Of a stretch of 64,000 bases of DNA, positions 1,320 through 26,900 are shown piece by piece. Below the pieces are notes generated by a model. The model was not told where the DNA came from and searched no databases. It saw only the letters and a list, made by a program, of their open reading frames with translations. Made by a program: the position numbers and the translations under genes. Each line of letters opens with the position of its first letter. The first letter of the stretch is position 1. The stretch is from Pomacea canaliculata (taxonomy: Eukaryota; Mollusca; Gastropoda; Architaenioglossa; Ampullariidae). The stretch spans positions 14,420,252-14,484,251 of the forward strand of contig NC_037595.1 in assembly GCF_003073045.1 (NCBI RefSeq), in the 5' to 3' direction.

Positions 1320-2934
1320 AGTTCCCAAGCAGCTGAAGATTGTTGTGATCTTTATGTCTGCAAGTGTTCTTCAGTCCTCTGAGTTGATTTTGAACTTAAA
1401 GATTTCAGTATTTGCTATGAAATGCAACCAAAATGTAATATTTAGAGATTCTTAAAAGTAAAATTGCCAGCAGTGTTAACAGTATAGGGAATATGAGTTG
1501 GATTTTTTGGAGCAAAGATAAATATTACCGTTTGTGACAGCACGTTGTTTTAGGTGTTGCTATGCTCTATAATTTGTCCAAAATCATAACAAAAATTGTT
1601 TCTGAGAACATATGGAGAGACTATTGGTCAGTGACCCCTTTGTGTGGTGTATGGCTGCATGCATAGATACTAAAACAAAGCATTTTGACAGATATGCTTT
1701 AACAGTAAATCCACTGGCTTTAAATTTATGATTTATAATTAACAGATTAATACATAATAGTAAACTACTAGTTACCATATTTTGAAGACAACTCAAACTT
1801 AGGAATCACGAATTGCAAGTTGAGGGCAGAAGCTAAAAATGTGAAAATGTTTGTGCTGGATAAATTATGGAATAAATGATAAAGAAAATCATATTCAATT
1901 GTAAATGAAAACTTTGCAGCACATACATTAGTTTTTTTAAAACCCAATGTTATCTTTAGTAGATGATTAAATGGTGAGAGACAAAGATTTCTATCTTTGA
2001 GACAGATCCAGCCATGTAATTGTGAGACTGTCAGACATCCATGTCTCAGAAAGTTTCTTCATGGAGATTTTACATAATCTATTTGAGGTCTTTTTTTTCT
2101 GCAAGTGATAGTGCAATCATTAATGTTCCAGGAATTGGCTTATCGAAAGATATTTGTTGATTTTATAAGCTGTTGGTATTGTGTTCATTGTTGTATGAGA
2201 CTTGAAGAAAGTTTCCAGTCAGATCTTTTGCGCTGATGTACATTCGCTTTCTATTCAAGTTTTTGGTACCAGTGAAAATGTTTTTCAAGTTTATGTGCAT
2301 ATGCATGGAAATCATGTGAACATATAATTTCTGCTTGTGCCTTATGTACAACTGGGGACAGCAAGCTGTCAGTAGATTTTACAACCCATTTTTACCTCTT
2401 TATGATTTTGATGAAACTGTTGAAGAGTAGGTTTGTTTTGTACACTACCAAAGAACAGTGAAACATTCCTTTTAAAAGTTGACTTTTGCAATCGTTACTA
2501 CACGCACAAACTTAATCTGAATGGTGTTATGTGGTGAAACACTGCACACGTGTTGTCAAGTGTTTGCACATTTGAATGCAAGTGTTTTCTCAAGTAACAG
2601 AAGGTGATTTGGGAATAGAACATATCAAAATATTTTGGATAAAGTACTTAATTTTTTTTAAGGCAAAGAAAGTCATTTTCATTTCAGTCATTTTTACTTT
2701 TTGATGACAGAACAGTTCATAGTATATTTTGTATATACCATAAAAGGTGGGCTTATTCATCTGACCAAGACAAATTTACAATGCAGACTTGTGGCATAAG
2801 TACACATAAAGTGCTTACCATCTTTAGTGTCACTGCCACATTTTATCTGTTTATTTCACCTGATCATAGTTGTGCTGTTTATGAGAGATAATCAAATTCG
2901 TAAAACCTCTGTGTGCATGAAGTGCAGGAACTCT

Positions 2935-3288
2935 AAAGCCAGTTGAAAACATTTTATATTAGAAAAATTGTGCATATACATGGCCAGACAGATTAATTCA
3001 GGGTGCATGAGAGTCTGCGCAATAACATGTCCAAGTAGGCTGTAAACACAAATTTCATTTTGTACTTAAAAATGTTGGTATTTGCTTTTTAAACTTTTTT
3101 CAAAGCACTAACACACAGTGTTAAAGCAAGTTGAAAAAATTTTCTATGAGAAAAATTGTGCATATACAGAGCCAGAAAAATTAATCCAAGGTGCATGAGG
3201 GTCTGCGCAATAACATGTTCAATGGGGTGTAAATACAAATTTCATTTTGTACTTAAAAATGTTGGTATTTGTTTCTTTTTTTAACACT
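2935..3288 (+). repeat. Two-copy tandem duplication, unit about 188 bp
   Basis: Bases 2935-3100 and 3123-3288 are two diverged copies of the same sequence, offset by about 188 bp. Shared blocks include AGAAAAATTGTGCATATACA, GTCTGCGCAATAACATGT and CAAATTTCATTTTGTACTTA. Small substitutions and indels separate them, so the duplication is not recent. Confidence 0.8.
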
Positions 3289-7929: not shown

Positions 7930-8112
7930 GATAGACAAGTTACAGCTGTTTGTCAGTTTGTCTACTATGATCAGCTATACAAGTTCAGCGCCATCCGTCA
8001 CATTCTGTCTACGCGCGCTACCAACACTTTTGTCTGTGCGTTTGTTTTATCCAGACTTGATTACTGCAACTCGATCCTTAATTTGCTTGACGGCTGCAGA
8101 AAGTACACGTCT
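7930..8112 (+). mobile_element. LINE reverse transcriptase C-terminal fragment
   Basis: The plus strand encodes a stretch including STRATNTFVCAFVLSRLDYC followed by NSILNLLDGC. TLVCAFVLSRLDYCNSLL is the typical C-terminal signature of CR1/L2/jockey-type LINE reverse transcriptases. The fragment is short and is abruptly followed at 8113 by a different repeat beginning CAGGGCCGCCGAGAG. Confidence 0.7.
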
Positions 8113-8242
8113 GCTCAGGGCCGCCGAGAGCCAGCCCGGGCCCCGGGACAGACGAACTCTCCGGGCCCCTTGTACTTGTAATCGTAAATTATTTTCCCAG
8201 TATATAATGTATGTTTACAATTGGAATCTCAATATCTACACT
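8113..8242 (+). mobile_element. Truncated copy of CAGGGCCGCCGAGAG terminal-inverted-repeat element
   Basis: It starts CAGGGCCGCCGAGAG and matches 16471-16590 over about 120 bp, including CTTGTACTTGTAATCGTAAA and GTATATAATGTATGTTTAC. The match ends at about 8242, so the right half present in the second copy is missing here. It directly abuts the LINE fragment on its left. Confidence 0.75.
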
Positions 8243-9870
8243 TCATTCAGTAACGAAATATAGACTGCAAACAGTAGGACAAGTGCACTAGGATCTACAT
8301 CACTACTTGAATATAAAGTTGTTTACATGCGAGTGGTTAGTAAATGAGGACAAATGATGTTAAAAGATCAGACTTGTAGCACCCCGCTCCACAGACCCCC
8401 CCCCCTTTTAGTAAGGACTGTTACGTCAGCAGCGATGTCAAAACCTCGACAGATTAGAACAACGGGTAGACGTATCACATCGCCTTTTGTTCTAAGTGCT
8501 GCGCTTTTGTACTAAGCTCACTGACGTGCAAGGAAATGTTCTCTATGTAAGTGATTTATACTTCTACATGTAAAGAGGAAGAACCGAAGAAGTAAATGCC
8601 TAAACAAGTCTTCATCGAGTGTCATTAATAACCTCATTAAAAAAGTGTTTGCTGCGACGAACAGCAGAGCACATCAGTTATCATGTTTATCAACTTACAT
8701 AACAAACACGCAGCACCTATCGAAAGTCCCTTCCTATATTATTCCTTTAGCAAAACCGCACGCGCGCGCGCACACATACACACACAATAACTACACACAC
8801 GCATGCTGTTACACGTAAACACATATCTGAACTGAACTGTCGCCTTCAGACTCTTTAAAGCAGAAATTTTGAATTCATCCAACTTTTTACGAAGCATTAA
8901 CTCGGTCGACTTCAAACCCCATCAGTCACTAGCCGTTAAAATACGTGTTGAGTTTTAGAAGACAAAGCAACTGTTTTAAAGACTAGTTAGCTAGTAAGTG
9001 TTAATACTTTTAATATTTAAGGAGATTAGAATGTTTTGTAAAAATGACAGAAAAATAGAAATGTTTAGCATATTTTAGCTGAAAGGTAATAGTTCATAGA
9101 ACAAAGTTATACAGTACTAATATTGTCATTTACCTGCTGACTAAAAACTTTATGAGCTTTTCTCACAAACTTCATTATTGTCAGTCAATTTGAGACGCTA
9201 GTCACTCTCATTGACACTGATGTTCCTGCCTTGTCAAAATGCTATTTGCCAATAAACTCGATTACTATACTGTGGTAGTGTGCGACATCGCAGTTAGTGG
9301 GGATGGAACATAGCACGCACACAGGGAGGGTGGAGGCTGGCAATGTGGGGGTGGTGGTCGCTGGCCGGGTGACAGCCACGTGACAGAGGAAGGTGTGAGG
9401 GGTCGACTAGCGACAGGATGCAGTGCGCGGATGTGGATGGATACGCCTAATCAACCATCCAAACAAAGTTATGCAGAGGGCAACCCAGAATCACGAGGTC
9501 AGAAGAGTTGGAGGACTTACGGATACATGTATCACCATCTTCAGTGTACCCTGCGCAGCAAACATTCTTCCTGCGATAGGCGAGCTCCGTGACCACTTTG
9601 TACGTTGACCTCAGCTCTGTTCTGTAAGCAGCAAATGTTGTTTAACTCTTGTTTAAGATAAATGCATACGAAAAAATAGAAAGACGAGACAAAAATGGCG
9701 TATCATACGACTACTTCTAAGATGTTAATCTTTTCCTATTCCTTTGGCTAAGGAGCATACACATATTTTAGTTACAGAAGTCTTACAAAACAAGTGCGAG
9801 CATGACAACTGTGAAATTATAGGTCACGAATCACATTCGCATACACAAACGCATACATTCACATTCACAC
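8243..9870. other. No gene seen; low-complexity patches
   Basis: I see no supportable coding exon. There is a C-run near 8396-8404 and a CG/CA dinucleotide patch at about 8760-8790. The piece 9300-9610 is more GC-rich and lacks stops in two frames for 60-70 codons, but shows no motif I can name. Confidence 0.4.
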
Positions 9871-9874
9871 TTAC

Positions 9875-10300
9875 CACCAGACCTTCCTATATGCACCAGG
9901 CCCTCACTCAGACCAGGCCCTCCCTTTTCGTATACTTGAAGGAAACGAGGTACCCCTAAGCTTCTAATGCCAAAGCGAAGAAAGTGATGAATCAAATTTT
10001 TTCTCAAAGTTTTTGCACCATGCCCTCCCTTTGCACCAGACCCTCCCATCTACGTGGAACTTTTTTGTTTAAAAAAAAAGTTTTGCACCAGGCCCTCCCT
10101 TTGCACCAGACCCTCCTCTTTGCACCAGACCCTCCCATCAACGTGGAACTTTTTTTAGTCTTCTAATGCCAAGCGAAGAAACTGATGAATCAAATTTTTT
10201 TTGTTTGCACCAGACCCTCCTCTCTGCACCAGACCCTCCCATCGACCTGGAACTTTTGTTAAAAAAAAGTTTTGCACTAGGCCCTCCCCCGGGTTTGTTT
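9875..10300 (-). repeat. rDNA-spacer-like block with GCACCAGACCCTCC motif copies (left flank)
   Basis: Roughly ten copies of the motif GCACCAGRCCCTCC, mostly preceded by TTT, alternate with copies of a longer unit (CTTGAAGGAAACGAGGTACC ... CTTCTAATGCCAAAGCGAAG). Both repeat types recur at 12.6-13.9 kb between the 28S and 18S pieces, which places this block in the same ribosomal spacer family although it lies on the other side of the 18S/5.8S fragment. Confidence 0.8.
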
Positions 10301-10344
10301 GCTTTTGTTTTGTTTTTGTTTGTTTTTTTTGAAAATGGTTAGGG

Positions 10345-10429
10345 TTAGAGTGTTCTGCAATTCACATTAATTCACGTAACTGGCTGCGTTCTTCATCGAC
10401 GTGCGAGTCGAGTGATCCCACCGCCTACA
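10345..10429 (-). pseudogene. 5.8S rRNA, 5' half only
   Basis: The reverse complement reads GGCGGTGGGATCACTCGACT, then CGTCGATGAAGAACGCAGCC, then GTGAATTAATGTGAATTGCA, then GAACACT. That is the conserved 5' half of animal 5.8S rRNA. Homology stops at about 10349, where the sequence continues as CTAACCCTAACCATTTTC. About half of the usual ~155 nt is missing, so this cannot make a working 5.8S. Confidence 0.9.
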
Positions 10430-10600
10430 GTTGTTTCATTTCTTTTCATCTGCTTTGCAACGATATTTGAAAGGTTTCAACAAAATGCGAAATGAATGAA
10501 AAAAAATTGTAAAGCTAGGGAACAGCCACGCGAGAATGTGCCTCTCTTTACACTTTCGCCGATGCCACCCCCGAGGCGAGAGTCCGGGGCGTCACTGAGA
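10430..10600 (-). other. Remnant of ITS1 and degraded 18S 3' end
   Basis: This stretch lies between the 5.8S piece and recognisable 18S sequence. The universal 18S 3' terminus (GATCCTTCCGCAGGTTCACC on this strand) is absent. About 170 bp is short for ITS1 plus the 18S 3' end, so a deletion is likely. Confidence 0.5.
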
Positions 10601-11321
10601 GCCTGACTCGGCAAAAGCTTTCCCTCCGGTTTGATAGACTTTTTCAGACTCTCGACGTGGAGGCCAGCTACCCCTCACTAAACCGTTCACTCGGTAGTAG
10701 TGACAGGCGGTGTGTAGAAAGGGCATCGACGTAATTACTGGGGAATTCTCGTTGATAAGAAGAATTCAAGCCCCCAATCCCTATCACAAAGGACGTTCAA
10801 GGGTTCGCACTGTTTTCAAAGCATGGTCACATTCACCTTGATTCCTTCTAAAGGCAGCCTGACCTGTTATTGCTCAATCTCTTGTGGCTAAACGCCACTT
10901 CTCCCTCTAAGAAGTTAGCACCGATGCGTGAAGAATCGGTGAACTATTTAACAGGCTAGAGTCTCGCCCGTTATCGGAATTAATCAGACAAATCGCTCCA
11001 CCACCTAAGAACGGCCATGCGCCACCACCCACCGAATCAAGAAAAAGATATCAATCTGTCAATGCTTACAGTGTGCGGACTGGGTGTGTTTTACCGTGTT
11101 GAATCAAATTAAGCCGCAGGCTCACTCCTGGTGGTGACCTTCCGTCAATTCCTTTAAGTTTCAGCTTTGCAATCATACTTCCCCTGGAACCCGAAAAGTT
11201 TGGTTTCAGAGTCGATGAAGCGACACTTGCACAACGCTAGTTGGCATCGTTTATGGTCAGAACAATGACAGTATTTAATCGTCTTCGAACCTCTGACTAG
11301 TTCTTGAGTAATGAAAATATG

Positions 11322-11352
<31 letters not shown>

Positions 11353-12068
11353 GCGAAGACGACCCTGCGAAGAGCCGCGCACGTTCAGGCTTCGCGCAGT
11401 GAGCGTCGCGAGACGGACCGCACGACCATGCCTGAGATGCAACTACGAGCTTTTTAAGCGCAACGACTTTAATATACGCTATTGGAGCTGAAATTACCAC
11501 GGCTGCTGGCACCAGACTTGCCCTCCAATAGATCCTCGTTAAAGGGTTTAAAGTGTACTCATTCCAATTGCGGAGCCTCAAACGAGTTCCGTATTGCTAT
11601 TTTTCGTCACTACCTCCCCTAGCCGGGAGTGGGTAAGTTGCGCGCCTGGCGCCTTCCTTGGATGTGGTATCCGTTTCTCATGCTCCCTCTCCGGAATCAC
11701 ACCCTGATTCCCCGTTACGCGTTGTCAACATGGTATGTCTATCACGTACCATCGACAGTTGATAACGCAGACATTTGAAAGATGCCTCGCCGGCTCGAGG
11801 CCATGCGATCGGCACAAAGTTATCCAGAGTCATTAAAGGGACGGGGCGAGACCCCGACTGATTTGAACTAATAAAAGCGCTCTTTCCCGGCTTTGACGGG
11901 TCGGAGTTGGTTTGCATGTATTAGCTCTAGAATTGCCACAGTTATCCAAGTAGAAATGGATCATCTAAGGAACCTCGACTGATTTCATGAGCTATTCGCG
12001 GTTTCACCGTACGAGGCATGGCTTAATCTTTGAGAACAAGCATATGACTACTGGTAGGATCAACCAGA
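10600..12068 (-). pseudogene. 18S rRNA pseudogene
   Basis: The reverse complement starts at 12068 with TCTGGTTGATCCTACCAGTA and carries 18S landmarks throughout, for example the complements of CCGTCAATTCCTTTAAGTTT (about 11142), AATATACGCTATTGGAGCTG (about 11472) and GTAATTACTGGGG near 10730. Length is about 1.47 kb against 1.8 kb or more for animal 18S: the very 3' end and part of the middle (around 11370) are missing. Normally invariant stretches are altered: the 3' box GACGGGCGGTGTGTAC reads GACAGGCGGTGTGTAG here, the 5' end has extra bases in the CAAGCATATGCTACTGG region, and a block between the start and the first helices is lost. I call it a pseudogene. Confidence 0.9.
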
Positions 12069-12560
12069 ATGCTGTTGGGTGTACACGTAACCGACTCCCA
12101 CGAAGCAGTCGCCGCTGGAGCGCGGGTCCTGCGTTCGCGGGTGCTTTTCGCTCTTGCAACCGAATCATCGGTTCAAATTTTCAACGTGCGGAGCGTTCAC
12201 CCGATCGACACGGGCGCGCTCTTTCACTCGAGACACAGTCAAGCGTTATTCGTTACGCAGACGCGGCTGGCCGAAAGGAGCACGACGAACCCCTCTCTCT
12301 GCTCAACCAGCCCACGCCTGAGCCGTGGGAAACGCGACAGCGAAAGCCGCGCGAATCGCCACCAAGCCAACCCGTACCACACCTTCTTCGGTCCGCTTCG
12401 AAACCGGCTCGCAGCAGGAAGGGACACAGACAACGATCACTTTCGACCGAGGGCGTCGCACGCCGAGCGAGCGCTCATTTGCCGATGCAAAATCGAAAAC
12501 TGGGTGAGCACTACATGGCTAATAGTAATCTTTCTCTATTGCCATGTTCACTTTCTCGCG
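12069..12560 (-). other. 5' external transcribed spacer-like sequence, copy 1
   Basis: Lying directly upstream (minus sense) of the 18S start, this GC-rich block matches 12868-13150 for about 300 bp, including ACACAGTCAAGCGTTATTCG, TTCTTCGGTCCGCTTCGAAA and CGCACGCCGAGCGAGCGCTC. Its position between a promoter-like box and the 18S start fits an external transcribed spacer. Long open frames across it on both strands are not supported as protein. Confidence 0.65.
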
Positions 12561-12635
12561 CCTTTCGGCACACCTGCTCCCCATATATATAGCGCCGATT
12601 TTGCCCTTCCCTGCCTTGTGCCACGCCTCCCCTTG
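12560..12635 (-). promoter_or_regulatory. Putative RNA polymerase I promoter block, copy 1
   Basis: The minus strand reads GGCGTGGCACAAGGCAGGGA ... GGCGCTATATATATGGGGAG ... AAAGGCGCGAG. The same block recurs at 13185-13260 and 14405-14475. A TATA-like box about 0.5 kb upstream of an 18S start, repeated in the spacer, fits a Pol I gene promoter with spacer promoters. The function is inferred from position and repetition only. Confidence 0.45.
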
Positions 12636-12868
12636 CACCAGGCCCTCCGCACCAGACCCTCCACACCAGACCCTCCGCACCAGACCCTCCGCACCAGACC
12701 CTCCTGTTCGGTAAACTTGAAGGAAACGAGGTTCCCCTAAGCTTCCAGTACCAAAATGAAGTTACTAATGACTAGAAGTGTGTTTTCAATGTGTTGCACC
12801 AGACCCTCCGCTCGAACGAACATTTTACAAGTTTGGCACCATGCCCTCCGCACCAGACCCTCCGCGAG
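12610..12868 (-). repeat. Spacer minisatellite cluster, GCACCAGACCCTCC motif
   Basis: About eight motif copies occur, five of them in near-perfect tandem at 12640-12705. One copy of the CTTGAAGGAAACGAGG unit follows at 12715-12770. Confidence 0.85.
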
Positions 12869-13260
12869 ACACAGTCAAGCGTTATTCGATGCGCCGACGC
12901 CGCTGGCCGAAAGGAGCCACGACGAACCTCTCTCTGCTCAACCAGCGCGCGCCTGAGCCGTGAGAAACTCGGCAGCGAAAGCCGCGAATCACCACCAAGC
13001 CAACCTGTAACAGACCTTCTTCGGTCCGCTTCGAAACCGGCTCGCCAGATGACGGGACGCAGACAACGATCGCTTTCGACCGAGGGCTTCGCACGCCGAG
13101 CGAGCGCTCATTTGCAGATGAAAAATACAAAACTGGGTGAGCATTTCATATATAGAAACCTTTATAGCCACGGTCCCTTTCGCGCACCTTTCAGGACGCC
13201 TGCTTCCCATGTATATAGCGCCGACCTTAACCATACCTGCCTTGTGCCACGCCTCCCATT
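12868..13260 (-). repeat. Second copy of ETS-like plus promoter-like block
   Basis: This block repeats the order of 12230-12640: ACACAGTCAAGCGTTATTCG, CTCTCTGCTCAACCAGC, TTCTTCGGTCCGCTTCGAAA, GCCGAGCGAGCGCTCATTTG, then the TATA-like box (CCCATGTATATAGCGCCGAC) and TGCCTTGTGCCACGCCTCCC. It is offset by about 635 bp with many small differences. In minus sense it is a duplicate gene-proximal spacer lying upstream of the first. Confidence 0.85.
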
Positions 13261-13435
13261 GCACCAGGCCCTCCGGGCACCTGACCCTCCCTAGGCACCT
13301 GACCCTCGCTAGGCACCAGGCCCTCCGGGCACCTGACCCTCCTAGGCACCAGACCCTCCGGGCACCTGACCTCCCTAGGCACCAGGCCCTCCGGGCACCT
13401 GACCCTAACTCGACCGGCACCAGACCCTCCTATTG
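13255..13435 (-). repeat. Spacer minisatellite cluster, GGGCACCTGACCCTCCTAG variant
   Basis: Some ten motif copies occur, alternating CACCAGGCCCTCC with GGGCACCTGACCCTCC and linked by TAG. It is a higher-order variant of the same 13-14 bp motif. Confidence 0.85.
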
Positions 13436-13634
13436 AACTGAAACTTCCAAGATGATGGGTGAATTCTCATTTGGTACGGTTATCGGGCTGGGTATTGTTG
13501 TGATCGGTTTTTGTCGGTGTACAGAGACACAACGTTGTTCGGAATGCGATCAACCGGCGAAAGGAGAAAGCGTTGCTGCTATGGACAACATTTGTTCAAT
13601 TTTTTCCCTATTACTTTCCTTTTTTTTTTAAACC

Positions 13635-13900
13635 AGGCCCTCACGCACCAGACCCTCCTCTTCGCACCAGACCCTCCTCTGCACCAGACCCTCCTGTATG
13701 CACCAGACCCTCCCATAGCACCAGGCCCTCCATTTTAGTATACTTGAAGGAATCGAGGTACCCTAAATTTCTAATACCAAAGCGAAGTTAATGACGAGTA
13801 AAGTTTTTTCAAAGTCTTTGACCAGACCCTCCTATCTGCACCAGACCCTCCCATCGAACTATAATATTTTCAAAAGTTTTGCACCAGGCCCTCCCCCTGG
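13635..13900 (-). repeat. Spacer minisatellite cluster, third block
   Basis: About nine GCACCAGACCCTCC copies occur, plus one CTTGAAGGAATCGAGGTACC unit with CTAATACCAAAGCGAAG. It ends at a short poly-A/G tract next to the 28S 3' flank. Confidence 0.85.
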
Positions 13901-14064
13901 GTTTTTTTGAAGAAAAAAAAAGAAAAAAGCGAAGTAGTAAAGAGAGAGAAATTGGTGTGCTGCTTTACCGGTGCACCCGGTAGCTGCATCACCACCTTTC
14001 CCCCTTTGTACTGAGGAGGGGGACTCGAGCCCATCGTCGGAGATGCGTCCGTCTGCGAATGCGG

Positions 14065-14410
14065 ACAAATCTCCTGGTCCAAGGCTCAGTCTCAATAGAT
14101 CGCAGTGAGGTGGCTGCTCTACTAAGTACGACACCCCGACCGAGAACTAGGTCGTCTACGAATGATTTGGCATCTCCACGTCGCATGGGGTGAAAATCGT
14201 CCTGGTCCCGCCGCGCACTGCTCGGCGCGAGCGGCTGATGACCCCTTCCTGTGGCTTCACCACGCGCGGCTGTGACACCGCGGCGTGTATCGCAGCGGCA
14301 CTGAAAGTATCGTTACATATTCGGGCGGGATTCTGACTTAGAGGCGTTCAGTCATAATCCCTCAGATGGTAGCCTCGCACCATTGACTTATCAGCCAAGC
14401 ACATAAACCT
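14065..14410 (-). pseudogene. 28S rRNA, 3'-terminal fragment
   Basis: The reverse complement contains 28S 3'-end landmarks in order: TGTGCTTGGCTGA, CGAGGCTACCATCTGAGGGA, TTATGACTGAACGCCTCTAA, GTCAGAATCCCGCCC, then a variable part, CATTCGTAGACGACCT, GGTCGGGGTGTCGTAC and CTGCGATCTATTGA, ending near TTTGT at 14065. The first about 90% of the 28S gene is absent; at 14411 the sequence jumps straight into spacer. It lies upstream of the 18S piece in the same orientation, as expected for the end of the preceding unit of a tandem rDNA array. Confidence 0.9.
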
Positions 14411-14535
14411 TTCGGGACGCCTGCTCCCCATGTATATAGCGCCAACCCTAACCATCCCTGCCTTGTGCCACGCCCCCTCCAAATTTCTAACCGGGCGCGA
14501 GCCGTTCAGGCCCTCCCTAGGCACCAGACCCTCCG
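14405..14535 (-). promoter_or_regulatory. Third copy of putative Pol I promoter block with one spacer motif
   Basis: GGGACGCCTGCTCCCCATGT, ATATAGCGCC and CCCTGCCTTGTGCCACGCC match the blocks at 12.6 and 13.2 kb, followed by AGGCACCAGACCCTCC. It joins the 28S fragment abruptly, which marks a rearrangement. Confidence 0.5.
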
Positions 14536-14818
14536 AATCCCTTCAGCCGTTGCCGGTGTACAGCGCTGCGAGAGACCGTTGTGAGTCTTTTTCCGATTTT
14601 TGCCCATCGTTTGAGAAAAGACACTAGGCCTACAGCAAGCGATGCTCGTTAACAACGATTCCATTTGAATTCCCTGGGGAAATTATTATCCATTTTATTT
14701 CTATTGATTTTTTGGTCAAAACAAGACTTGCATGACCATGAGAAATTAGAGAGAGGATAAAATATGTTACTTTTGTTTCAATTTTTTTCTACACTTGTAT
14801 TGCTTTATTTTGCTTCAG

Positions 14819-14904
14819 TGCTGAAAGAAAGTGCACATCAAGATGGTGAACATGGTGGCTTAGAAGATTTATTTTCCAATGATCAGCGAAACCAAACCAT
14901 TTGA
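14819..14904 (+). CDS. Candidate orphan terminal exon
   Basis: A strong acceptor (ATTGCTTTATTTTGCTTCAG) ends at 14818. The following frame reads, after two bases, LKESAHQDGEHGGLEDLF, then SNDQRNQTI and stop at 14902-14904. The acidic, stop-free stretch behind such a good acceptor looks like the last coding exon of a plus-strand gene. Its upstream exons would lie across or beyond the rDNA insertion and I cannot identify them. The family is not recognised; chance is possible. Confidence 0.3.
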
Positions 14905-15120
14905 CTGGACTAAACAGAGATGGAAAAATGCAAGACTGGGATAGCAGACTTCTCGATTCATTTCAAAACTGACACCATTGCTCTATTGATGACAGACAGG
15001 TGTATGTTGAAGATGACGTGTTTAATTAAGATGAGGCTGAACCTTACACAGTACTTGTCTCATACATTCATACATCGCAAGTCTGTTACATGCCACACAC
15101 CATAATTCTTACACAGGAAC

Positions 15121-15515
15121 GCGTTATGGTACCCACACGTCACAAGTCGCACGCGTTATGTTACAGGACCACACGTCACAAGTCACATGCGTTATGGTAC
15201 AGGACCACACGTCACAAGTCGCACGCGTTATGTTACAGGACCCACACGTCACAAGTCACATGCGTTATGGTACAGGACCCACACGTCACAAGTCGCACGC
15301 GTTATGTTACAGGACCCACACGTCACATGTCACATGCGTTATGTTACAGGTCCCACACGTCACAAGTCGCACGCGTTTTGTTACAGGTCCCACACGTCAC
15401 AAGTCACATGAATTATGGTACAGGACCCACACGTCACATGTCACATGCGTTATGGTACAGGACCCACACGTCACATGTCACATGCGTTATGTTACAGGTC
15501 CCACACGTCACCCAG
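15121..15515. repeat. 36/37-bp minisatellite, about ten units
   Basis: The unit begins ACCCACACGTCACAAGTC and continues with either GCACGCGTTATGTTACAGG or ACATGCGTTATGGTACAGG. The two variants alternate in the first five units, giving a higher-order 73-bp period; later units are mixed and the last decays near 15510. The unit has no stop codon in several frames, so long false open frames cross the array. It lies just beyond the donor of the second exon of the EMI-like gene on the minus strand. Confidence 0.95.
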
Positions 15516-15557
15516 GCCACACGTCATCATACTCACACGTGTTGTTCTTTTGCTCAC

Positions 15558-16213
15558 CTTCATCTCCTACATCGCGGAGGAAAATGCCAACACCACGTGT
15601 TAGTGCAGACTTCGTGCGCGTGCTGAGTCAGAACAGTTTTGTACATCAGGTACCTGTGAGAGTTTAGAAAAAACAGTTACACACAAATACTTAGACACAA
15701 CTCACGTGCCTGTGTGCGCCAGGTATTCGGTGGGAGTTTAAAGAAGCCGTTACACAGAACAACAGACTGGGACATCTAATCTAAAAATGTTATTTCCCAC
15801 GAAGGCACATTTCACAAAATACCATTTGCTTTATTATATTACAGTTTGACTATCATGCACTCGACTAAACCTTTAGGCTAGGGCAACGGCCGTGAGATAT
15901 GTATGTGTAAACCTTGACATAAACTGTGTATTAAAATATCAAGAAAAATATTTCAGAAGCGAGTAGAATGAAAGGAGGCAAGAAATCTGAATTTTTTTTT
16001 AAATATCAAATTTATCACGAAATTTGACAAGAGCTTTCATTAGGCCACGTGCGTTTGAAATGCTGACAATAAAAGACATCTGGATACTTACGACTCCTGT
16101 ACAGTGCACTCAGTACCAGTCACATTGCCTGAGGTCACACCTTGCACCACGTGGAAAATAAGAAAACAGACCAGAAATCCCAATGGAGCAGGACACTTCA
16201 GCTTCGTGTTCAT
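15558..16213 (-). CDS. Small secreted EMI-like protein (partial or broken gene)
   Basis: Exon 1 is 16092-16213: ATG at 16213, a 40-codon frame, donor GTAAGT. It encodes a clear signal peptide (MNTKLKCPAPLGFLVCFLIF, then HVVQG) followed by TGTECTVQES. Exon 2 is 15558-15653, with acceptor CTAAACTCTCACAG and a frame-consistent join giving YLMYKTVLTQHAHEVCTNTW, then CWHFPPRCRR. The V-Q-E-S-Y and spaced cysteines resemble the EMI domain at the start of MEGF10-type proteins. A TGA falls just two bases before a good GTGAGC donor. The gene therefore either encodes a 72-residue peptide or has lost its frame there; downstream exons are not seen and the DNA beyond is minisatellite and rDNA. Confidence 0.5.
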
Positions 16214-16470
16214 TTTCTGACCCTGCAATAATACTGTACTTTATTTCGTCTTCCTGTAAACAGTAATATTCCTGGGATGATAGATTATCCCTATATTATC
16301 TACCTTGATGGGTGTTAGTTCCTTTGTGCACTATTCTACAGTAGCTGCATGCAACAAAAGAGACTGCTCATGTAAATGACACTGAAGACGATGTTACACT
16401 AGATTTTACTTCCAAGAAGTACAGTATTCCATGGAGAGCCAACTGTCAGCCTGTTATTTTAGACTGTAAG

Positions 16471-16761
16471 CAGGCCGCCGAGAGCCACCCGGGCCGCGGG
16501 ACAGACCTCTCCGGGCCCTTGTACTTGTAATCGTAAATTATTTTCCCAGTATATAATGTATGTTTACAATTCGAATCTCAATATCTACACTCAAACTCAA
16601 CTTCTGCATGTGTAATGCTTGGTGTTCTGTCCTTAGACCTTTCTTTAAAGAAAAAGAAAAGTAGAAGAAGAAAAAAAAATCCACTGACCAAGGCCGGGCC
16701 CCCTTGACAGCCGCGGGCCCGGGTACACCAGACCCTGTCCCCCCTCTCTCGTCAGGCCTGC
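16471..16761. mobile_element. Short non-autonomous DNA element with CCGCCGAGAG / CTCTCG ends
   Basis: The left end CAGGCCGCCGAGAG and right end CTCTCGTCAGGCCTG are imperfect terminal inverted repeats about 290 bp apart. The left 120 bp matches the truncated copy at 8113. No coding capacity. A clear target-site duplication is not visible, so the superfamily is left open. Confidence 0.65.
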
Positions 16762-17294
16762 GTCTGCTGCACGTCTGATTAACATTAATAACCAGGTTTA
16801 TAAACACGATCTGTCCATTATTGCTTGTTAATCAAAATTGTGATGAAGATAAAACATATATATTTATTGTAGCGGGAGCGCTACTTAGGCCTAGTCACTC
16901 CACCCCACATCCCCTTCCACCCCACGCGTGGTCGTATATAATTAAGATTGAAATCAAACATGACTTCCTTAAGAGTGGGATTTTGCCTACGTGGTCCTCC
17001 TCTCTGAGCGAAGTATTTATGACAGATTTTAAACCTCATCAATCTACAGTGGAAGTGTGCACTGCTTGTGTATCAGCCATGCTGACAGCAAGGACCGTAC
17101 ATAAATACAATACAAACTCAATGGCGTGGCCCTGATGGTACCTTTAGCAGACGACACTACCTAACGATTCCATTGGACCATGAATTTGTATTACACGTCT
17201 GTGATTGGACGATTTTGACCTCGACCTTTATATAACACGCAAGGTTTAGGTACAAAAACTTTGTATGTGCCGGTAGCTGTCTTAGAATCCTGCA

Positions 17295-20200
17295 ATGACT
17301 TCTGGCTTCCGAACCTTTGGCGTTGTTGTTGTTGGTATTGGAACAGCAGGGCGGGTGCGTTTAAGAGATTTACAAGAATGCGGCTCTACCATTAGTTTGG
17401 AACTGAAAGGGTTTGTCTCCAGGTACTCGTGCCTCGTTTGAATCACTTACGTAACGTGTATAACACTCGACTACTGTAGACTCGAATGGTGTCTGTTATT
17501 CGATGCTAAATAGTACAATAACTTGATTCAGTGCTGTTGGCAATAAATGTCTTAATAAAAAAAATGTGAAGTTGAGGAGGGGAGAGGAAATGTGGTAGAC
17601 ATAAGGGTCGATCGAAAAACCCACAAACGACGGCCGTCTGTTGGATGTATTGCTTGGAACTGCATTTGCTGTAGACGCGTATGCCTTCTTGATATGTTTG
17701 ATCACGGACGTATAAATTAGTTCGTGGTTTAATATTTTGGCTGCGGATTAGGGTTCGTGGATCGAGTATGTAGACGCAACCCTTTGGCGTGGAGTGTACC
17801 GTCTGCTACAGTCATTTAATTTGTTTTGTGGACACTGTATTTTGACCACACCAGCTTTGAAGGATATGACGCTATATAAGCAAACTTTTATTTGTTTATT
17901 TTTTTATTTTGATGACAGACTGAAACAGAACAAGACAAGTTTGGCATATTCACAGAACATTTGTCTTTGTATTTTATATATTCATTTCAGTTTTTTCTTT
18001 TCATAAGAATGTTTACCTCATTCTATAAGCATGCTTTCTCAATGGTTAAAATTGACTTATAGTTGTTGACATCCAAAACTTTGTATTTTGTTTTTTCATA
18101 AAGGCATGAAAGCGAAATTCCTGGTGTGACTAAGTTGTCCTATGAAGAATGTTTGGCCAGATCTGACATCCATGCTGTAATAATCTGCACCGAGCCGCAC
18201 ACCCATGAGAACCTTATAAGGCAGGTTTTAAAATCTCCTATAGGACTCTGGTATCTGCAAAAGATAAAATGTCCTGTAAATGATAGTGTATTAATTAGAT
18301 ATTTCTTACTTTTGAAGTTTGAATGTACAAGAGCCCTACCATTGCTGGCCATTACAAATACGGTTGACCAGAAAGGGGTGTGGTTACGGAAACTATCGTC
18401 ACATCATCTGCTTCATCCAGTCACTTCCCTAATCCTCAACTTAAATCACACAACTTTACAAGACTCAAGCATAATTATAACTGATGCAAAAAATCTAAAA
18501 TATCCTTATCACCTGGTTTATTCATTATAAGCCAGTTCATTAGCATACTACAACTCCATGCCCTACTCCCTTTTGTTTAGTCAGTTTGGTTTCATTTCCC
18601 TCTATTCAGTGGTATTTGACCTGGTACCACTCTTCAAGCATCTGATTTCCGTAACTCACCTTTATGTAATGTCTTCACATGTGGCTGCTCTTAATGAACA
18701 GCAGTCATGAAGGACTAGAGTCATGAAGCTCTATAAGCGAGTCTGATTAGATAGCTTCTGTCACATTGCCCATTTGTGTAATGTGTATAACAGGGCTTTT
18801 ACACCATTATCTGGGAAAGGTGAGTCTACACTAATCACAGTCTGTCATATTAAGGAAATGACAGTCTCGTTAACATCTAACAATATTTCACCTGTCACAA
18901 AGATCAGGTTTTAAAATACACTAAAAATATTAACCTTCTTTTTTTTCTTTTTGAATCTTTAGACAAGCACTCTACAGCAACAAACATGTCCTGGTTGAAT
19001 ACCCTGTTGCCTTGTCATCACAGATAGCTCAAGACTTGTATCAGCAAGCAAACCGTAAAGGTAACTTATTGTACTTTGTTCAGTGCATGTAACATAAATA
19101 GTTAATTTTTCTAATGGATAAATGTTGATATTTTGTGATAATCACAGGTTTAGCTTTGATACTTTGTCTTCATCAGATCTCTTCCATTGCCTTGTGGACT
19201 ACCTGTGAGTTTATTTTATAATCCCAAAACTGTAATGGTTTTTTTTTCCTTTAAAAAGGCCCAATGTCTTGAGCTTTCATCGTTTTTCAGTGTTACAAGT
19301 TTTGTTACCCTGCAGGGCTGATTGTGCAGCTGCAGTAGCATAATAGAGAATTAATTCGTAGATGGTGCATTGAGAGCTTCGTGTAGTTTTGTTTGCATCC
19401 ATCTTTAGTCCTTTTGTCCAGTAGCTTGGTCTGCTTCACTTCTGCATCAAATATTTTGTTTTACATCGGTTGTTTTCCCTTCAGTACTTTAACTGATTTG
19501 TCAGTGTGGCAAAGCTGCCCATTCCTCCTTGTTTACTCTGAATTGTGACCAGCAACACATCACACAGACAACACTGATAGAATTGATAAAAATTAAAAAA
19601 GCCCAGTATTTTGTATCAGTGTTTATAGACTGCTGATTTGATCATAGCAATGTATATGATAATTTGTACTACAATGTCAGGTCTTGTACTTCATGAAGAA
19701 ATATCAGACTTCTGACAGAGAGTCACAAGTCATTGAAAGAAATGGCAACAGCAGAACAGCTGAAATGTGCAAGGAGCAATTTAACAGGTGAGAGTCACAA
19801 CAAAACATGTTACCCAGAATATATATATATGTGTGACCTCTTCTAAAAAGCAGAATCAAGTGCAGTAGCTGGAGAATTGCTGCTGTGGGACTTGGGAGAT
19901 TTTTATTGTCATCCAAACTCTCTTAACTGCTGCATTAAAAATATGTCTGGACTGTAGGAGAGTAATGTGACAAGTTGAAAGTCACTCTGCTGCTGACATC
20001 ATTTTTTAATGAAATATCTATTAATTTTAAAAGAAACACTGCTTCATTGCACTATTTTTTTTTTTATTAAGATGGTGAGTACTGTGAGGGATATTCACTT
20101 TTTGCTCTAGTCTTGACATAGAATATGCAGCAGTGAGTTTTGAGATACAGAACATGATGATGTGGAAGGTTTTGTGTAATTTCCTGTGTATAATCATATG

Positions 20201-21654: not shown

Positions 21655-21965
21655 ATTAGTTTTTTTATGCAGGAAATCCGTATTATTTATTTAAAAAATT
21701 AATAAAAATGTTCGTCAGGCTCTTTTGAAAAGTTTCTAATCACTATGGGATAAAATGCTGCCTATGCTTCTCAGAGGAGCAACAAGGAATAAACTATGGG
21801 ATAAAATACAAGCCCATTTGTACAAAAATCATGTCTGATATTAGAAAAAATCTATACATGTTTCTGTGAAGTGTTAGAAAATTACTTTTTATATTTGATA
21901 ATGTTTATTCTTTGCTAATAATTTAAATTAAATTACATGAAATATTTGACTATAATAACTCCTAC
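21655..21965 (+). other. BLVRA 3' UTR
   Basis: AT-rich sequence after the stop with AATAAAAATG at about 21701, a plausible poly(A) signal. No other feature seen before the inverted-repeat element at 21966. Confidence 0.5.
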
Positions 21966-22140
21966 CAGGGCTTCTGCTTACGCAAAAAATTGCGTACAGT
22001 ACGCATTAAAAGTTTGGGGAACCCCTTCAATTTTCGTCAATGGGGTCCCCTTCAAATTTGGGCGAAGAACAGGGACCCCTTAAAAATCTGAAGAAGGGGT
22101 CCCTGGGACTCCAAAGAATTTAGCCTTAGCAGAAGCCCTG
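21966..22140 (+). mobile_element. 175-bp MITE, copy 1
   Basis: The perfect 13-bp terminal inverted repeat is CAGGGCTTCTGCT ... AGCAGAAGCCCTG. It is flanked by CCTAC on both sides (21961-21965 and 22141-22145), a probable 5-bp target duplication. Internally it has GC-rich blocks with GGGGTCCC in both orientations. The same element is at 26399-26573 in the opposite orientation. The transposase family is not determined. Confidence 0.9.
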
Positions 22141-22145
22141 CCTAC

Positions 22146-23968: not shown

Positions 23969-26900
23969 ATGAGCAAAGTGGCGACGTTGTCGCGTGTTGG
24001 GTCCTCACCCAGTGACGTCCTGCAGGACAGTGTGGTTCAACAGGCACAGCTGAAGTTCCTGTCCTGCGTCGATCTCAATGAACGTGTGTCACACTACTGT
24101 CAGCGGCTGGCAGCTCTCGGAGCCTTTTGGCGGCAGATCACTGCACTCGGGATGGCCCAGGTTCAAGATCGGTGAATCATTTGTGTGGATGGATGATAAA
24201 ATGATGTTTTAAATATCCATTTTTCCTCTATAGTGATAAGTACTTGACGAAGAGGTGAAGCTCTGTACCTTGGTGGCTTTAGTGCACACGACTCTAAAAC
24301 TCACTGGAGGCCCGCTCGCAATTGTTTTTCCTGCACAGGTCTTTACAAAAGAATGAACTTCGGGCCTGTTTGGTAAGTTCCAGCAGATTCCAAACGCGTC
24401 AAGTGAGGTCCACTCAATTCCTTCAGATGTCGCCAGTAAATTTGTAAGCAACGAAATGATTCGGGAAAACGACAGTCTAGCATTTTCGTAGTAACATTAG
24501 AAATCCTGTTATGTAAGAAATTCATAGAAAACAAGTTAAAAGGAGATTATGCTGAGATTACAAATGTTAATTGTCTTGCAACGAATTAACACTAAAACGA
24601 TGTAAATATTGTTAACTGCTTACTATTCTAAAAGCCCAACAGTAAGTGGCAAAAGAGAAATCGGAAACCTCCAGGTACTACCATAATGATGTCGGTGAAA
24701 AGCTCAGAATGTACTATTTTCTTGTACCAAACAAAATCTTAAAGCTCAAATAGCAGCGTCAGTTCATGCGCTCAACGATTTAGATATTGTTAATCTAACT
24801 TTGAAATCTGCATGAGACACAACATGGACTTGATGCCAATTCACCAAACTCTTAATTAATTGAATTGCTTTCATAAAACTTTTTGCCGCGAAGCTTTGAA
24901 ACGAGGCTGGTCGTCTTCTACAGTTCTACGTCGTTTGATTGGCGAAGAAAGCGGAAATGGCACAATGTTGTCAATGGGCCCCAGATTCATTCCTTCCCTA
25001 AAGATACTTGCAGGAAAACTCCCAAAGACTATGCCCATCCAGTAGAAATGGATAACTGATTTATGAGGTAAGATAAATTATAAATAAAGTCGGCAGAAGG
25101 AGAATTTTGAGCTGCTTGACACAGTGAACCACTTATACTGCGACCACCAGACTGAGATTCTTTACTTTTTCTCTTAATATTGAATGAGCACCCAGAAATG
25201 AGATGCTTTTAAAAGTGAAATAGTTCATAATAATTTCTAAGTCAGATCCCACGTGCTGACCAGGGTCAAGTGGTCAAACGGGTGGAGATATTACTTTGTA
25301 CGCTGGACCGGGTGGCCCGCCAGCTGTTAGAACGATCGGCTCAAGTGGAATCTAAGAGGCAGGCCGTTCAGCAGCTTATTGACAATATAGGTGAGACCAC
25401 GGTCTTCGAAAGCACACACGCCTAATGCAAGCATATAATTATTGATAGGCCCAACACTACTTAACCTATATGTGGATAATAGACACACGGGTAACTGTAT
25501 CCTGCCGTCGACTGTACAATAGGGGATTGGCTGTCAACAGCCAAAAATAAGTCATTTGTGTGACAATCACGAGAACCAAGTTACTATTTATTGTCGCTTT
25601 AGATCTATCGACAAGCTACTGCTTTATATATTAATATATAAAGAAGACGAAAGTACGTTTTTCATGTCTTTTCGCATCCAAATTTCTTGCTTACCGTTTG
25701 TTGTTTTAATATCATTTAGACCACAGATTACAACGGATGAATGTGAAGTAATATGAGCAAGTGTTCTCTAAACACATTGTATAATGTATAATTGTATAAT
25801 GTTAACTCATGACACGTTTAAAGTCCTCTCTTCTTTGTTCTTTAAAGCAAAGTGTAACGACAAAGTGACTGATGACTGACACAAGGCACAGATCGTGTTC
25901 ATGGTAAAGATCTGCGTGTCTGTGTGTGTGTACAGCCGTGTCTGAGCACGCAGTGGAGGCGCGGGCCCTGGAGCTGGCGGAGGACGTGCTGGAATGCGAG
26001 TACCGCGAGCGTCAGCAGGCTATGCACGTCATGGCTGTACACTCCCTGCAGCAGGAACAAGGTCAGCTGCCTCCCTCCTCCCGTCACATCTTCCCACTTT
26101 GACATCACATCTACCTGCACACCACAGTTTCTAGACGACCTTCTGCTGAAAAAACATCAACAGGAACAAATTTCTCTTATGATGTTGAAATGGTCTTGAT
26201 GCCAAAAAGACTCAAGTCTCTGTCAGCTGCTCATCGGCTTCTGCCAGCTTGGGGCCATTGTTAAAAAGTAGAAGTAACGTTACCCAAGGGTAGACTGGAA
26301 CCGTTATGAAGTCCTGTATTAAAAACCAGGCGCAGAAGAAAGTTGATAATCTAAAGGTCCCTGCCTTGGGTATAGGTTACAGCTATAGATAGGTACTGCA
26401 GGGCTTCTGCTAAGGCTAAATTCTTTGGAGTCCCAGGGACCCCTTCTTCAGATTTTTAAGGGGTCCCTGTTCTTCGCCCGAATTTGAAGGGGACCCCATT
26501 GACGAAAATTGAAGGGGTCCTCCGAACTTTTAATGCGTACTGTACGCAATTTTTTGCGTAAGCAGAAGCCCTGGTTACGGAAGTGTCTCTGGCTCATATC
26601 TACGACCTCAACAAACACCGATGTCCCACAGTTTATATTCTAATATTGTCTAGCTATTAGTGCTGTGTTTATGGGTGTTTGTTGTTAAATCTTCGGGAGG
26701 AAATAAAGGGGCCGTTAAAACAGAGCGTAGACATTGCGACTGTTAGTAACTGGTTACCTGTCTCACAGGTGAGCTGGAGAAGCTGCTAGTGCCCCAAGTC
26801 AAGGTACTGAGAGAGACGATGGACCAACTGGAAGAAAAGGAAGAGCGCCTCAGGCGCGTGCAGGTATCTTTGTTACTGTTGTCAGAATGCTGTGCTCTAG

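Follow-up and report, generated by a model that had tools for sequence, protein, structure and literature searches.

Here we describe a displaced piece of ribosomal DNA (rDNA) in the genome of the apple snail Pomacea canaliculata and the mobile element that very probably carries it. The sequence analyzed, here called the window, comprises 64,000 nucleotides of scaffold C6 (C6:14420252-14484251) of the 440-Mb genome, which is assembled in 24 contigs; coordinates refer to the window unless a scaffold is named. The rDNA cargo occupies positions 9875-14640 of the minus strand, between two captured exons, and was delimited by Rfam profile matches, repeat families and self-alignment.

The ribosomal DNA segment

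All Rfam matches in the window were on the minus strand. They comprise an 18S rRNA at 10601-12070 (RF01960, 840.1 bits), the 3' end of a 28S rRNA at 14067-14455 (RF02543, 112.7 bits) and a 5.8S rRNA at 10279-10432 (RF00002, 55.4 bits), of which only about 10357-10432 is genuine 5.8S, the remainder being spacer. Read along the minus strand, the segment begins with a fragment of intergenic spacer (14478-14640; identified by spacer 14-mers and direct reading) and a promoter-like block (14407-14477; repeat family D8), which the letters of the junction show to be fused to the 3' end of the 28S gene (14067-14406). It continues through intergenic spacer with CACCAGACCCTCC-type repeats (13344-14066; repeat analysis) and a spacer copy of a promoter and external transcribed spacer (ETS) block (12865-13343) to the promoter-like block and ETS ahead of the 18S (12071-12705; repeat analysis and self-alignment). 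The 18S pseudogene with its mapped core deletions (10601-12070) is followed by the first internal transcribed spacer (ITS1), placed at 10433-10600 between 18S and 5.8S, and by the 5' half of the 5.8S gene (10357-10432). The latter gives way to a junction stretch with TAACCCTAACC and then to downstream intergenic-spacer repeats (9875-10356; repeat analysis and self-alignment). The promoter/ETS block is present twice, with 83.9% identity between 12229-12705 and 12865-13343, and the block adjoining the 28S fragment is a third, promoter-like one.

This order, the duplicated spacer/promoter block and the position outside the array agree with a preliminary description of the sequence, which had recognized a scrambled and displaced rDNA piece with a pseudogene 18S, half a 5.8S and most of the 28S gone; the extents of the Rfam matches and the gaps in the 18S core blocks bear out these losses. 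The segment is an rDNA orphon in the sense that it is rDNA-derived sequence outside the main array. The locus holds no intact functional unit, a possibility that the description had raised, since the 18S has core deletions, only half of the 5.8S is present and most of the 28S is absent. Exactly at the 5.8S/spacer junction, GGTTAGGGTTAG (10337-10348) forms two telomere-like units; it occurs once in the window and in the junction of many copies elsewhere. TAACCCTAACC looked like filler from telomere repair; it belongs to a junction string that recurs at 37 sites (see below) and so would mark at most the founding event.

The 18S spans the profile from end to end, but blocks of the conserved core are absent, as is the conserved 3' end; an intact 18S (L003) scored 1657.4 bits against 840.1 bits for the window. 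It was compared with three 18S references, two of which (L001, heavily masked, and L002) are partial 18S sequences from contaminated contigs of bacterial metagenome-assembled genomes, while L003 is a full 18S record. At 527 columns of the 3' half where the three references agree, the window has 419 matches, 56 differences and 52 gaps. When references were held out as controls, L001 differed at 26 and was gapped at 1 of 554 columns (window: 71 and 57), L002 differed at 79 and was gapped at 1 (window: 75 and 62), and L003 differed at 76 and was gapped at 0 (window: 80 and 59). Substitutions alone place the window clearly above only one of the three controls (L001). Because its gaps in the conserved core (57-62 vs 0-1) exceed those of all three, the window 18S is, on the evidence of its sequence, a pseudogene. 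Decay by CpG deamination was considered and found unsupported: invariant CpG bases had changed from C to T or from G to A in 5 of 49 cases, and other invariant C or G bases in 14 of 185. As for the full reference, L003 (NZ_CP050525.1) is named as an Acinetobacter plasmid and is eukaryotic 18S rRNA over its whole length of 1764 bases (1657 bits); its 3'-terminal letters resemble a sequencing adapter.

Ends and structure of the element

In 17 retrieved regions, homology to the window extends beyond the rDNA and stops at 8115/8116 (in most regions reaching there) and at about 16760. These positions delimit an element of 8,645 bp (8116-16760, minus strand), whose START lies at 16760 (CAGGCCTGACGAGAG, minus strand) and whose END lies at 8116 (CAGGGCCGCCGAGAG, plus strand); the two sequences form imperfect 15-bp terminal inverted repeats (TIRs) that are alike at 12 of 15 positions. 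Reading of the ends and flanks identified the 8-bp target-site duplication (TSD) CGTCTGCT in identical copies at 8108-8115 and 16761-16768. The preliminary description, which had set the limits at 9875 and 14640, missed this larger repeat, both ends of which lie outside those positions. A first scan of the window for duplications near the edges of the rDNA itself (9780-9900 and 14560-14740) found none that was convincing; the ends of the element lie further out (8116/16760).

Among the rDNA-bearing copies of which both ends were read, the 8-bp TSD is perfect in 10 of 11 (window, L016, L017, L018, L019, L020, L022, L023, L028 and a copy on C10) and has 7 of 8 matching positions in the remaining one (L012). 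The TSD sequences and flanks differ among all 11 copies, insertion sites vary, and on inspection none of the flanks read is 28S. The C10 copy (C10:15522882-15542222; within a retrieved stretch of 24.5 kb that includes 256 N) is a 19.3-kb element with one START, one END, the TSD CCCCTGGA and five tandem rDNA units. Members of the hAT superfamily have 8-bp TSDs and short, imperfect TIRs that begin with CAGG or CAGNG, and the element shows both features. No transposase domain was found in the 21 frames scanned against Pfam, out of 60 frames of at least 60 amino acids that overlap the element (8000-16900), or in 6 frames from two copies of the parent family described below; no genome search for a hAT transposase was made.

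Both ends have relatives elsewhere in the genome. The END region (8116-9440, minus strand) belongs to an abundant parent family of about 3 kb: window sequence 8243-9440 is abundant and dispersed (1143 first-look candidates, 40 of them scored), and the dispersed copies L036, L037 and L038, which are without rDNA, have some 1.3-1.4 kb of other DNA between the START (16760-16593) and the END region, which begins at 9440. L036 and L038 reach the last base, 8116, and have perfect 8-bp TSDs; in L037 the extreme END was not reached. The START of the rDNA-bearing element is supplied by a 288-bp miniature inverted-repeat transposable element (MITE; 16473-16760, minus strand), which is made up of the parent START (16593-16760) and END (16473-16591). 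Its core pattern has 273 matches in the genome, and a solo MITE with its own perfect 8-bp duplication lies inside L016. The genomic segment captured between the two transposon ends (9441-16472, minus strand) has no match in the three parent copies retrieved. The element is thus laid out as a complete MITE, about 7 kb of captured DNA and the END part of the parent, all in one orientation, and its outer ends derive from two different elements in direct orientation, the arrangement of a macrotransposon.

The captured segment includes two minus-strand exons. Exon 1 (16092-16213), with a signal-peptide-like start and an ATG, was recognized by direct reading and ends in phase 2 at a GTAAGT donor; the other (9521-9621), in phase with exon 1 and bounded by an AG acceptor and a GTAAGT donor, encodes the C-terminal part of an EMI domain (Pfam match with E 6.8e-5 and 24.0 bits, under the cut-off of 25). 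The exon phases agree across the rDNA, which sits in the would-be intron 1, and from these sequence features we infer that an EMI-domain gene was the host of the rDNA-bearing intron. The other Pfam matches among the frames scanned were two weak ones from a tandem-repeat frame, both below the cut-off. Tandem-repeat analysis located 37-bp repeats at 15131-15511 of the captured segment.

Several further features of the window were recorded. A 178-bp inverted repeat (21964-22141 and 26398-26575, 97.8% identical, 4.2 kb apart) is possibly another transposon or a palindromic pair, and a tandem pair of about 157 bp lies at 2934-3090 and 3122-3277 (88.5% identical). To the right of the element, positions 18102-18530 gave a weak match to the Pfam oxidoreductase family GFO_IDH_MocA, just under the cut-off. 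The ratio of observed to expected CpG varies in blocks from about 0.2 to 1.0 over the window (1-64000), as in mosaic-methylated invertebrate genomes, and is 0.98 in the rDNA cargo.

Spread, origin and alternative explanations

The string that spans the 5.8S/spacer junction, which is expected in no intact rDNA unit, has 37 matches (up to 3 mismatches) on 11 scaffolds, whereas a reversed-pattern control had none; these are sites and not elements, as in some cases several units lie within one element. When the rDNA piece served as query and 17 of 219 first-look candidates were scored, pieces of more than 2 kb at 90-97% identity emerged on eight scaffolds (C1, C2, C3, C4, C6, C7, C8 and C11). The intact-18S motif CCGCACGCGCGCTACACTGAAGG had no match in the assembly (up to 2 mismatches), and the rDNA array itself is probably not assembled. 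Scans of viral contigs gave no matches, nor did phages; among plasmids, the 18S record L003 was returned together with short matches to prokaryotic rRNA, and the 28S piece had no match. L016 and L018 hold two rDNA units each, and the promoter-like 70-bp repeats also vary in number between copies. We infer unequal exchange as the source of the variation in unit number, from one to five in the copies seen.

The copies, all from one genome, have their damage in common. Each of the core 18S deletion junctions d1-d5 was recovered from 16 or 17 of the 18 loci, and every miss concerns a locus that was retrieved incompletely (L026, L027, L033); the 18 loci are not all independent, as one locus was retrieved in two halves (L026 and L027) and the tail of L018 counts separately as L033. 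Compared with the window 18S, the copies have no insertion of more than 17 bp, and therefore the core blocks lost from the window are retained in none of the retrieved copies. Averaged over pairs, the copies diverge by 0.9-3.2% depending on the zone, and individual pairs by as much as 8.7%. The shared core deletions and the low divergence indicate that damage came first and spread later, and, as read from these sequences, the broken unit was spread by transposition after it had been damaged. The preliminary description had supposed that a fragment of array was inserted or left behind here and then decayed. The displacement stands; decay in place does not, as the copies have the same deletions within a TSD-bounded element.

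We consider it very probable, from ends, duplications and copies together, that the element is a non-autonomous, hAT-like cut-and-paste transposon whose rDNA cargo was damaged before it spread. In the proposed sequence of events, an EMI-domain gene would have harbored at least two head-to-tail rDNA units in its first intron, where they lost most of the 28S, the second internal transcribed spacer (ITS2), half of the 5.8S and parts of the 18S. Two elements of like orientation, a MITE lying ahead of exon 1 and a truncated copy of the parent lying beyond the EMI exon, could then have been used as one transposon by a hAT transposase supplied in trans. The new element would have multiplied recently by transposition, and unequal exchange would have altered the number of its rDNA units. 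Macrotransposition by two nearby elements is the likeliest founding event.

The distribution of the copies is not uniform. For 24 hand-merged loci on the six scaffolds with at least two loci (single-locus scaffolds, C9 and C10 were left out), the median nearest-neighbor distance is 0.22 Mb, and none of 20,000 random placements was as low (mean 3.96 Mb). On several chromosomes the cluster zones lie mid-scaffold, and they may be pericentromeric. Exceptions are a terminal pair on C8 (29.5 Mb) and a cargo match on C13, which at 23.50 Mb is remote from the junction match of that scaffold (13.80 Mb). The C8 pair (L025 and L026, 29.49-29.52 Mb) consists of truncated copies at most about 35 kb from the scaffold end, which represent a local duplication because their right flank is common to both. 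MITEs among the matches listed (the first 100 of 273, from C1 to part of C6) are spread along the chromosomes, including C5, which has no junction match. On C1-C4, 14 of 65 MITEs located more than 15 kb from any element fall into the cluster zones (4.9 expected), so that the zones are richer in MITEs as well, and some of these 14 may belong to unrecognized elements. Low-recombination retention, local hopping or target choice could explain the clustering.

That the copies gather in one zone of most chromosomes would also fit dispersal through segmental duplications or through ectopic exchange among pericentromeric regions, with transposon ends merely hitch-hiking, and the C8 pair was evidently duplicated in this way. 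Larger duplicated blocks, however, would bring their flanks along, whereas all 11 copies read at both ends differ in their flanks and have 8 bp duplicated (10 perfectly, one at 7 of 8 positions), which makes this route very unlikely for the family. Slightly less credible still is a classical rDNA orphon, that is, a single array fragment inserted or left by ectopic recombination or circle integration and decayed in place. The order of the parts is indeed what an array shows where one unit passes into the next, and the 18S is decayed, but the same damaged unit with the same deletions occurs many times, within a repeat whose ends are fixed and flanked by 8-bp duplications. Such a route may nevertheless be how rDNA first entered the donor intron. 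The least plausible explanation is an assembly artefact, in which rDNA reads were misjoined into single-copy DNA. The absence of the tested intact 18S motif, and hence a probably unassembled array, would favor it, but independent joins at different places would have had to reach the same base and be bounded by duplications of local sequence, and the published assembly is described as built from PacBio long reads (PMC6129957). The concern of the preliminary description about an assembly chimera is thus very unlikely to apply, given independent copies with different flanks and target duplications.

The one serious competitor concerns only the origin of the same element: a segment of gene and rDNA might have been captured into a single parent by gap repair or template switching. 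The END part (8116-9440) runs directly into captured DNA and has no START of its own, as this origin would predict. On the START side, by contrast, lies an entire MITE that has an inner END of its own (16473), which is what two neighboring elements would produce, and L014 is without that MITE; we regard capture into one parent as possible but distinctly the less probable origin. When hAT elements excise, they leave footprints in which the terminal TSD bases are changed. In L014 the cargo is joined to ACCGCACC-A-GTTACAGT, compared with ACCGCACG at the END flank, and by that rule this junction, a single candidate, looks like an excision footprint of the MITE.

Several observations weigh against a hAT-like macrotransposon that multiplied from damaged rDNA. 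The frames scanned yielded no transposase gene bounded by these ends, so that placement in hAT depends on the length of the TSD and the letters of the TIRs. Nor was an untouched donor gene identified among the 29 matches of an exon pattern, of which L042 and L043 were examined. The START is truncated or missing in L013, L014, L015, L024, L025 and L026/L027, and the END is missing in L021; the TSD tally leaves out nine rDNA copies, L042 having been retrieved too short and L043/L044 having an inverted END. Only 12 of the 18 loci show d6, a sixth boundary in the 18S, and the copies cluster in a way that random insertion alone does not predict. The locus L043/L044 (C9:18313000-18328500) has the START and cargo with two rDNA units; beyond the equivalent of window position 9452 follow about 350 bp of other DNA and then the inverted parent END, which the simple model does not predict. 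It is a candidate for the donor locus or for a rearranged copy.

Significance and comparison with known systems

Major rDNA shifts its chromosomal place quickly in many lineages. The element would provide a base-level example of a transposon that spreads rDNA, including tandem units, to many sites, and it makes testable the idea that transposon-borne rDNA is a seed of new rDNA loci. In practice, 18S and ITS probes, primers and barcodes for apple snails may hit dispersed pseudogene copies. On a speculative and rather improbable view, the element is a mobile, self-expanding rDNA module: with its promoter-like and spacer repeats and one to five units, it would seed mini-arrays around the probable centromeres of most chromosomes, recruit nucleolar proteins or RNA polymerase I there or exchange spacer with the true array, and so both profit from and shape the position of rDNA.

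A gene-capturing, non-autonomous hAT-like element is of a known kind, while its cargo is unprecedented as far as the literature searched shows: no DNA transposon bounded by TIRs and TSDs and carrying 18S-5.8S-28S units was found in the open-access literature, judged by titles and the openings of abstracts. For Lepidoptera, in which the relocation of major rDNA to new loci is likewise at issue, transposition, ectopic recombination and circles are named as proposals for rDNA spread (PMC10257491). The authors favor satellite-mediated spread of whole functional units, in contrast to the TIR-bounded transposon with a degenerate unit in the snail. For P. canaliculata itself, a recent burst of DNA/hAT-Charlie elements with a divergence peak at about 4% is on record (PMC6129957). 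The low divergence of the copies fits this burst, which concerns the same genome, recent activity and, by our reading, the same superfamily; rDNA cargo is not mentioned in the portion of that paper used here, and identity of the snail family with Charlie is only a possibility.

In maize, macrotransposons of the hAT element Ac similarly involve two nearby hAT ends that move the DNA between them, with 8-bp duplications and modified 8-bp footprints (PMC9910405). These are observed events with a known transposase and gene cargo, whereas in the snail the origin from two elements is deduced from structure, rDNA is part of the cargo and a dispersed family has resulted. The closest precedent found is Pokey of Daphnia, a DNA transposon of the piggyBac superfamily with rDNA-derived sequence, namely intergenic-spacer repeats of about 200 bp and ITS2-like repeats of about 50 bp (PMC3849761). 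Pokey has MITE relatives, occurs also outside rDNA, inserts at a specific 28S site and at TTAA, and carries its own transposase (PMC3849761). The snail element differs in its varied 8-bp TSDs, which are not TTAA, in having no fixed 28S site and in that no transposase was found in it. Whereas Pokey carries pieces of spacer only, the cargo of the snail element comprises promoter-like blocks, ETS, 18S, ITS1, half of the 5.8S and the 3' end of the 28S, in up to five units.

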